From Desulfosarcina sp. OttesenSCG-928-A07 (GTDB taxonomy: Bacteria > Desulfobacterota > Desulfobacteria > Desulfobacterales > Desulfosarcinaceae), in the NCBI GenBank assembly GCA_030267325.1, contig JAJDJS010000009.1, positions 1 through 64,000 of the forward strand: DNA of 64,000 bases. Reading direction: 5' to 3'. Positions 19,357 through 21,816 of this stretch are shown here, piece after piece. The translations under genes and the position numbers were made by a program. Within the stretch, counting starts at the first letter, position 1, and every line of letters starts with the position of its first letter. The notes beneath the pieces were generated by a model, which did not search any database, was not told the origin of the DNA, and saw nothing but the letters and a program-made list of their open reading frames with translations.

Positions 19357-20706
19357 TCAGACCAGGCCCTGGTCCAGCATGGCGTCGGCCACTTTCACAA
19401 AACCGGCGATATTGGCGCCGTTCATGTAATTGCCGGGTGTACCGTAGGCCTCGGCGGCAGAAAGACAGGTGTGATGGATGCTTTTCATGATGTTATGCAA
19501 CTTGCGATCCACCTCTTCCCGTGTCCAGGAAAGGCGCTGGCTGTTCTGGCTCATTTCAAGTCCGGAGACTGCCACACCGCCGGCATTGGCCGCTTTTCCG
19601 GGAGCGTAAAGCACCTTATGTTCAAGAAAGATGTCGATGCCTTCAGGTGTGGTGGGCATGTTCGCTCCTTCACTGACCGCCATCACGCCATTCTTCACCA
19701 GGTTTTGGGCATCTTTGCCGTTGATTTCATTCTGGGTGGCCGACGGGAACGCACAGGTAGCCGGGTGGTTCCACAAGGGGTTGAAATCCGCTGTTGGATC
19801 CACCGGTGTATACACGGCTGACGGATACTGATCCGCATATTCTTTGATCCGCCCGCGCCGGACATTTTTAAGGTCCATCAGAAATGCCAGTTTTTCACGA
19901 TCAATGCCTGCTTCATCATAAATATAGCCTGCAGAATCCGAGCAGGTGACGGGTTTTGCCCCCAGATCCAGAAGCTTTTCAATGGTATACTGGGCTACGT
20001 TGCCGCATCCGGAAACCAGACAGCGCTGGCCTTCAAGGGTTTTATTCCGGGTGGCCAGCATTTCTGCCGCTAAATACACCGCCCCATATCCCGTAGCCTC
20101 CGGACGGATCAGGCTTCCGCCCCATCCCAGGCCTTTTCCGGTTAAAACACCGGTGAACTCGTTGCGGAGTTTTTTGTACATCCCGAAAAGATAACCGATT
20201 TCCCGGCCGCCCACGCCGATGTCACCGGCCGGCACGTCCGTATTCGGGCCGATATGGCGGAACAGCTCCATCATGAAGCTCTGGCAGAACCGCATCACTT
20301 CCATATCGCTTTTGCCTTTGGGGTCAAAGTCGCTGCCGCCTTTTCCGCCGCCCATGGGAAGCGTGGTCAGGGAATTTTTGAACACCTGCTCAAAGGCCAG
20401 AAACTTCAGGATACCCAAATTCACGGACGGATGAAACCGAAGTCCGCCCTTGTACGGACCAATGGCACTGTTCATTTCAATCCGGAATCCCCGATTCACC
20501 TGGAATTCTCCCTTGTCATCCATCCAGGGGACACGGAAGAGAATGACCCGTTCGGGCTCCACGATTCGCTCCAGAATTTTGGCCTTCCGGTAGGCAGGAT
20601 TTTGATCCATGACCGGTTTGATGGACGCCAGAACTTCCATGACCGCCTGATGAAACTCGTGTTCGCCCGGGTTTTTGTCTTTGACCAGTTGCAGAATATC
20701 CGACAT
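19357..20706 (-). CDS. gdhA: NADP-type glutamate dehydrogenase
   Basis: GPYKGGLRFHPSVNLGILKFLAFEQVFKNSLTTLPMGGGKGGSDFDPKGKS; start MSDILQLV with GGAGG SD. Confidence 0.95.
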   Translation of the reverse strand: MSDILQLVKDKNPGEHEFHQAVMEVLASIKPVMDQNPAYRKAKILERIVEPERVILFRVPWMDDKGEFQVNRGFRIEMNSAIGPYKGGLRFHPSVNLGILKFLAFEQVFKNSLTTLPMGGGKGGSDFDPKGKSDMEVMRFCQSFMMELFRHIGPNTDVPAGDIGVGGREIGYLFGMYKKLRNEFTGVLTGKGLGWGGSLIRPEATGYGAVYLAAEMLATRNKTLEGQRCLVSGCGNVAQYTIEKLLDLGAKPVTCSDSAGYIYDEAGIDREKLAFLMDLKNVRRGRIKEYADQYPSAVYTPVDPTADFNPLWNHPATCAFPSATQNEINGKDAQNLVKNGVMAVSEGANMPTTPEGIDIFLEHKVLYAPGKAANAGGVAVSGLEMSQNSQRLSWTREEVDRKLHNIMKSIHHTCLSAAEAYGTPGNYMNGANIAGFVKVADAMLDQGLV

Positions 20707-20739: not shown

Positions 20740-20782
20740 AAAAAAAGCGCCTGTTACTCCCTCTTGAGGGAAAAACAGGCGC
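20740..20782 (-). terminator. intrinsic terminator in the gdhA leader
   Basis: Minus strand GCGCCTGTTTTTCCCTC-AA-GAGGGAGTAACAGGCGC followed by TTTTTTT, ending 33 nt before the gdhA ATG. Confidence 0.9.
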
Positions 20783-20842
20783 CGTTGCCTTTTTTGCTGT
20801 TCGGATAACTCAGTTAGGGGAAACCACGCCGTTGTGCTCTCC
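20772..20842 (-). promoter_or_regulatory. ANTAR-type dual-hexaloop antitermination element
   Basis: Minus strand P1 GGAGAGCAC-AACGGC-GTGGTTTCC (20842-20819) and P2 AAAAAAGGC-AACGGC-GCCTGTTTT (20795-20772); identical hexaloops with A1 and G4; P2 overlaps the terminator's left arm. Confidence 0.85.
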
Positions 20843-20861
20843 AGCTGATTATCACATTCTA

Positions 20862-20890
20862 CTTATAATAATGTGCCGGGAGTCTGTCAA
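20862..20890 (-). promoter_or_regulatory. sigma70 promoter for the gdhA leader
   Basis: Minus strand TTGACA (20890-20885), 17-nt spacer, TATAAG (20867-20862). Confidence 0.75.
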
Positions 20891-20909: not shown

Positions 20910-21623
20910 TCAGAACAGCTCCCGTGAGAGCAAAATCGCCTCGGACACCTCCATCATGGTTTTCCGCATGTCCATGCTTCGCTTCTGGATCCAGCGATAG
21001 GCTTCGTCCCCGCTGAGATGATTCCGCTCCATGATGATCTCCTTGGCCCGTTCAATGGTTTTTCTGGATTTCAACTCTTCCTGGATCACCTTGGTTTTGA
21101 CGATCAGCTCGGTGTTTAAAATAGCCAAGGCAGCTTGATTGGCCACAGTGGTGAGAAGATGGATATCGGTTTCGGAAAAGGTATGGGGGGTTGTCGTAAA
21201 ACAGTTGAGCGCGCCGATGGTTTTGTCTTTTTTGACCTGCAGGGGCACCCCGGCCATGGAAACCAGACCCAGGGTTTGGGCCATTTTTTTTTCTTTAAAG
21301 ATTTCGCACTGGAGAACATCCGGAATCATCAGCGGTTGCTGGTGGGTCACCACATACCCCACAACCCCCTCACCCAGTCCCAGGGACCGATCTATCACAT
21401 AGGCCGGTTCAATGGCCTGGGTGGCTTTGAGGCGGATCTGGGGCGGGCGGACCTCTTCATCCACCAGCCAGAGGGAACAGATATTGACCTCCGTAACCTT
21501 GGCCACCACCATGACAATCAGTTTAAGTAAATCTTCCAGAAAAAGGTCCGATGAAATCGCCTGACTGATGTTCATCAAGGCCTTGATGTAATCTTCATGG
21601 TGGGCGTTTGTGGTATCTGGCAT
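20910..21623 (-). CDS. GAF-ANTAR RNA-binding antiterminator
   Basis: GAF-like region (VTEVNICSLWLVDEE...GEGVVGYVVTHQQPLMIPDV) and C-term ANTAR (LKSRKTIERAKEIIMERNHLSGDEAYRWIQKRSMDMRKTMMEVSEAIL); start taken at MPDTTNAHHED (21623). Confidence 0.88.
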   Translation of the reverse strand: MPDTTNAHHEDYIKALMNISQAISSDLFLEDLLKLIVMVVAKVTEVNICSLWLVDEEVRPPQIRLKATQAIEPAYVIDRSLGLGEGVVGYVVTHQQPLMIPDVLQCEIFKEKKMAQTLGLVSMAGVPLQVKKDKTIGALNCFTTTPHTFSETDIHLLTTVANQAALAILNTELIVKTKVIQEELKSRKTIERAKEIIMERNHLSGDEAYRWIQKRSMDMRKTMMEVSEAILLSRELF

Positions 21624-21816
21624 AAAATTGCTGTGCGTTCTTTTTTCGTCGGGTTGGGTATGGGCTGAAACTCCCGGATTCTCAGCCGGAAGAGGGATTT
21701 GCTGTTCGAAAACGATGACAAAAAACCGAAGGTGACACACCCGATCGTATCGGGCGAGGGTGGCTTCCGTCAACCCATCGCCCGATATTTTTTTCATTTC
21801 AGCCCGGTCCACCCCG

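Follow-up and report, generated by a model that had tools for sequence, protein, structure and literature searches.

A predicted ANTAR antitermination leader in front of the glutamate dehydrogenase gene of a Desulfosarcina

Introduction

On the minus strand of a 64,000-nucleotide stretch of DNA from Desulfosarcina sp. OttesenSCG-928-A07 (the whole of which is called the window below), a gene coding for a protein with GAF and ANTAR domains is followed, in this order, by a promoter, two hairpins (P1 and P2), a terminator overlapping P2, a Shine-Dalgarno sequence and gdhA. This arrangement raises the question of whether the glutamate dehydrogenase gene is governed by transcription antitermination, and whether the neighbouring protein is the one that reads the leader. 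Antitermination through RNA hexaloops is known from the ANTAR proteins EutV, NasR and AmiR (PMC3369931, PMC8934654), and the targets predicted in the main text of Ramesh et al. 2012 are glutamate synthase, glutamine synthetase, PII, ammonium transport and nif (PMC3369931). Glutamate dehydrogenase is absent from that main text, and none of the open papers listed by a literature search reports it in title or abstract as an ANTAR target. An earlier, sequence-only reading of this DNA did not count gdhA among the established targets either, in agreement with the open texts and abstracts covered. We propose, with a probability of about 0.88, that gdhA is under the control of an ANTAR leader acting in cis by antitermination, and that this leader is read in trans by the GAF-ANTAR protein encoded next to it.

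Results

Architecture of the gdhA leader

The leader (minus strand throughout) opens with a promoter at 20890-20862, made up of TTGACA (20890-20885), a 17-nt spacer and TATAAG (20867-20862), exactly as the sequence-only reading had described it. Sequence, folding and covariation all point to hairpin P1 (20842-20819), which consists of GGAGAGCAC (20842-20834), the loop AACGGC (20833-20828) and GTGGTTTCC (20827-20819). Hairpin P2, the putative antiterminator (20795-20772), is formed by AAAAAAGGC (20795-20787), again a loop AACGGC (20786-20781), and GCCTGTTTT (20780-20772), as judged from the sequence and the fold of the nascent RNA. Both hairpins lie where they had been claimed, with stems less perfect than was then written: P1 carries one G-G mismatch and the outer stem of P2 one mismatch. 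Each loop has six bases, the first being an A and the fourth a G. The intrinsic terminator spans 20783-20746 and runs into seven T residues (20746-20740). Further down, the Shine-Dalgarno sequence GGAGG (20716-20712) stands after the terminator, as had been stated, and gdhA, the predicted controlled gene, extends from an ATG at 20706 to 19357. It encodes an NADP-type glutamate dehydrogenase of 449 amino acids, which matches Pfam ELFV_dehydrog and the NCBIfam model NF006929 (756 bits, for a cut-off of 536).

Folding of positions 20853-20740 yielded P1 with an extra lower stem together with the terminator, at -42.9 kcal/mol; the leader fold has a z score of -4.3, and none of 200 shuffled sequences was equally stable. 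In the computed fold of a nascent RNA ending after P2, both P1 and P2 form and the two AACGGC hexaloops are open. The 5' arm of the terminator contains the 3' arm of P2 as well as bases G4-C6 of the P2 loop, so that P2 and the terminator are mutually exclusive; the overlap and exclusion first noticed by eye are thus borne out by the sequence and the folds. A generic promoter and terminator scan listed neither the promoter nor the terminator of this leader; the stated rules of the scan require a final T, which TATAAG does not have, and there is a mismatch in the stem of the terminator.

Covariation and conservation of the leader

A covariance-model search and covariation among related leaders had been suggested as checks of the leader. 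A search of Rfam 15 at gathering and E-value thresholds matched no family to it. A match was found with an independent covariance model, R1, trained on 15 leaders of relatives that are linked to glutamate-synthase-family genes, no gdhA leader being part of the training set. The helices of R1 covary, with 33 cells changed on both sides as against 12.6 in shuffles, and none of 500 shuffles reached as high. R1 recovers the window leader with 35.7 bits (E = 6.9e-7 in the 64-kb window); genome-wide, it is the only credible match (E = 2.8e-5), the next one having an E-value of 2.2. The three other gdhA leaders, in genomes G052, G041 and G054, are matched as well, with E-values of 9e-14, 2.7e-10 and 3.8e-9.

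An alignment of 98 leaders, which was fitted to R1 and therefore leans towards it, contains 261 both-sided cells compared with 78 in shuffles, and the expected covariation was accordingly found in the training set and in this larger one. Seven of the nine P1 pairs show changes on both sides, and the terminator helix is 98% paired over 97 distinct leaders. Covariation is weaker in P2, the GAC/GTC core of which is nearly invariant: this closing stem is present in 96 of the 98 leaders, and the window leader carries GGC/GCC instead, a compensated, both-sided change whose 3' base is matched again in the terminator. Under a search model that favours such loops, position 1 is an A in 98/98 (P1) and 97/98 (P2) leaders and position 4 is a G in 95/98 (P1) and 98/98 (P2), a near-invariance that supports the reading as an ANTAR leader. 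Of 95 related leaders, 93 carry a TTGAC motif at a distance of 31-89 nt ahead of P1, as against 69 of 375 control windows. The window leader has the lowest score of the 98.

Two variants of the leader were seen among the relatives. Three hexaloop-type hairpins, not two, are found in L004, L018, L019, L022 and L024, and also in L035 (2537-2653). In the glutamate-synthase leaders L006, L007, L008, L025, L029 and L031, the ANTAR terminator is followed in tandem by another, plain hairpin terminator and its T run.

The GAF-ANTAR regulator

The gene lying directly upstream of the leader (21623-20910) encodes a protein matching both Pfam domains that the sequence-only reading had assigned to it, GAF with 72 bits and ANTAR (PF03861) with 68.2 bits for a curated cut-off of 27.3. 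Judging from 15 aligned orthologues, its true start is probably the ATG at 21623, i.e. M64 of the listed open reading frame, which reaches back to a GTG at 21812; the product would then have 237 amino acids. No other ANTAR gene was found in the genome, a 2.6-Mb draft of the Desulfosarcina group that is about 94% complete.

In EutV, the residues contacting the loops include R142, K143, K147, K149, Y164, M172 and R175 (PMC8934654). When 11 loop-contact residues of EutV were aligned with the window regulator, seven had an identical or similar counterpart and four a different one. R142, K143, K147 and K149 align with R187, K188, R192 and K194, and Y164, M172 and R175 with Y209, M217 and R220, while E160 lies opposite a G, R168 a Q, N173 a D and R177 a T. 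The substitution E160A makes binding by EutV 60-fold weaker (PMC8934654); a G at this position is common to many of the 15 aligned orthologues of the window regulator. Activation of the phosphorylation type does not apply here, since the regulator has no REC domain. The best sequence matches of its GAF domain include PtsP-type and NifA-type GAF domains, weak leads that would fit nitrogen sensing.

Co-occurrence of regulator and leader, and the usual targets

Among 60 genomes sampled from the window's own genome, its genus, family and order, 39 carry an orthologous regulator. The R1 leader is present in 37 of these 39 genomes versus one of the 21 without the regulator (Fisher p = 1e-12, a value that overstates independence, the genomes being related). 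In some relatives, such as G050, regulator and leader are located on different contigs. Over the order as a whole, 189 of 390 genomes contain an R1 leader.

Inspection of the DNA downstream of 100 R1 leaders of the order placed 90 of them before a gene of the glutamate-synthase family, in which two subtypes were distinguished, and none before gdhA. Desulfosarcina widdelii, D. alkanivorans, Desulfobulbus alkaliphilus and Desulfopila aestuarii are among the named organisms in which the regulator gene is followed by the leader and then by the glutamate synthase gene. As a rule, the target is a divergent PF01645 protein, 527-545 amino acids long (56-60 bits) and matched by no NCBIfam model; in L073, the target is a full GltB. 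A cysteine-rich N terminus was noted in the divergent protein (L080:5431-7011, L109:5690-7324), and the one copy compared with solved structures (L080) has no close natural counterpart among them. From its family membership, this protein may be expected to make glutamate.

Seven further leaders (L207, L227, L230, L233, L244, L246 and L250) precede an operon read from its translations as MvhD-MetV-MetF. This putative methylene-tetrahydrofolate reductase operon is possibly a second target of the regulator, linking nitrogen assimilation with C1 metabolism. One leader precedes a glutamine-amidotransferase gene, and two of the 100 regions end too early to tell.

Glutamate dehydrogenase as the predicted target in an exchange of enzymes

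Four genomes only, those of the window, G041, G052 and G054, were found to carry gdhA directly behind the leader. None of the four retains the glutamate-synthase-family gene of the usual circuit, which is kept by G113 and G149, two members of the same genus as G052. No PF01645 protein was detected in G052 or in the window genome, the latter being an approximately 94%-complete draft; the one in G041 is of another type, and G054 gave weak matches only. The window genome has one glutamine synthetase. That gdhA should commonly carry such a leader within the order was rejected: the gdhA genes of the 29 other best-matching genomes have none upstream, the matches being weak and most of them located elsewhere.

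A single origin of the four gdhA arrangements was rejected on the regulator tree (AU p = 0.005 with 101 rows and 4e-5 with 34 rows), whereas a common origin of those in G041, G052 and G054 was not (AU p = 0.39, 34 rows). The four gdhA-linked regulators do not form one clade, from which it follows that there were at least two exchanges; on the 101-row tree, three or four changes are called for. Nor do the four gdhA genes group together as a clade. These comparisons suggest that the enzyme behind a conserved RNA switch was exchanged more than once, glutamate synthase giving way to gdhA.

Origin of the window copy

The window regulator groups with Desulfobulbus types (99/98), and its being a vertical Desulfosarcina copy was rejected (AU p = 0.0007). 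The window gdhA is nearest to same-genus copies (85%), and the M48 peptidase gene behind it is of genus type (63-70%, versus 41-51% outside the genus). A mis-binned contig was considered as an explanation; against it, gdhA and its M48 peptidase neighbour are both of genus type. A Desulfobulbus-type regulator beside a gdhA and an M48 peptidase gene of the own genus points to a probable lateral acquisition of the regulator. The simplest reading would be that the native gdhA came to stand behind a Desulfobulbus-like regulator, which perhaps brought its leader along.

Discussion

In the proposed circuit, a transcript starting from the promoter at 20890-20862 would by default fold the terminator at 20783-20746, as the computed fold predicts, and would end near 20740, leaving a short leader RNA. 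Upon receipt of a signal by the GAF domain, an ANTAR dimer would bind the A1/G4 hexaloops, P1 and then P2, by analogy with EutV and NasR. On the same analogy, P2 would take up the 5' arm of the terminator, which could then no longer form, and gdhA would be transcribed. What the GAF domain would respond to is probably nitrogen or glutamate status, conveyed for example by 2-oxoglutarate or glutamine. The window circuit would be the order-wide circuit of GAF-ANTAR regulator, leader and glutamate synthase, with gdhA replacing the glutamate-synthase-family gene.

The hairpins might instead be the relic of an ancestral glutamate-synthase leader, the terminator serving only to end the regulator transcript and gdhA being expressed by its own or by leaky transcription, free of ANTAR control. 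Such decay would be in keeping with the weakest score of all 98 leaders, and gdhA can do without a leader of this kind, as most gdhA genes of the order do. Yet the promoter sits between the regulator stop and the hairpins, both hexaloops are intact, the change in the P2 stem is compensated, and the same gdhA arrangement arose in other lineages; we consider a relic improbable. Very improbable, in our estimation, is a switch of opposite sign, whose bound form lowers gdhA expression, or one acting at translation. ANTAR RNAs devoid of a terminator are indeed thought to act on translation, according to the text of PMC3369931, but P2 overlaps the terminator stem here, and more than 50 nt separate it from the Shine-Dalgarno sequence of gdhA downstream.

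Another ANTAR or RNA-binding protein could also read the leader, the adjacent gene being a bystander: adjacency alone is no proof of pairing, and the separate contigs of regulator and leader in relatives such as G050 are compatible with this. Against it stand the single ANTAR gene of the genome and the strength with which presence of the regulator predicts that of the leader, which leave a bystander scarcely credible. Control of an antitermination leader by the adjacent GAF-ANTAR protein, as first read from the sequence, remains the best account of the R1 match, the covariation, the A1/G4 loops, the single ANTAR gene, the co-occurrence and the conserved promoter element.

A wider interpretation can be offered tentatively, at somewhat less than even odds. 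In Desulfobacterota, the GAF-ANTAR protein may be dedicated to sensing glutamate demand, selection keeping the switch on whichever enzyme makes glutamate; after loss of the glutamate-synthase-family gene, the switch would have been re-placed before gdhA independently several times, once (in the window) with the regulator of a Desulfobulbus-like donor.

Glutamate dehydrogenase hereby joins the predicted targets of ANTAR antitermination, and the swapping of enzymes behind one conserved RNA switch indicates that the switch probably controls the entry of ammonium into glutamate. With one sensor, one leader and one gene, the locus is a bench-sized system in which the ligand of a GAF-ANTAR protein could be sought, and the R1 model finds such leaders in about half of the 390 genomes of the order that were covered.

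The mechanism is of a known kind, and glutamate synthase had been predicted as a target as early as 2012; gdhA as a predicted target and the recurrent exchange of enzymes appear to be new. The eut leaders read by EutV in Enterococcus faecalis share with the window the two A1/G4 hexaloop hairpins and the overlap of P2 with an intrinsic terminator; as to the ANTAR residues that contact the loops, the window regulator agrees with EutV at or near identity in seven of 11 and departs from it in four, E160 among them. EutV differs in relying on a phosphorylated REC sensor, whereas the window regulator has a GAF domain in the same chain and gdhA as its target. NasR, which acts on the nasF leader of Klebsiella, likewise unites ANTAR and a signal-binding domain in a single protein that works by leader antitermination (PMC7496416, PMC3369931); its domain senses nitrate, however, and it controls a nitrate assimilation operon. 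The leaders predicted for glutamate synthase in Desulfotomaculum reducens, as presented in the main text of PMC3369931, also place an ANTAR leader on glutamate synthesis, in a Firmicute and before glutamate synthase, in contrast to a member of Desulfobacterota and gdhA in the window. The glutamate-synthase-family loci of Desulfobacterota share an orthologous regulator, the leader architecture and the position of the leader directly after the regulator gene; what differs is the downstream gene, coding there for the divergent PF01645 protein (GltB in L073) and in the window for glutamate dehydrogenase.
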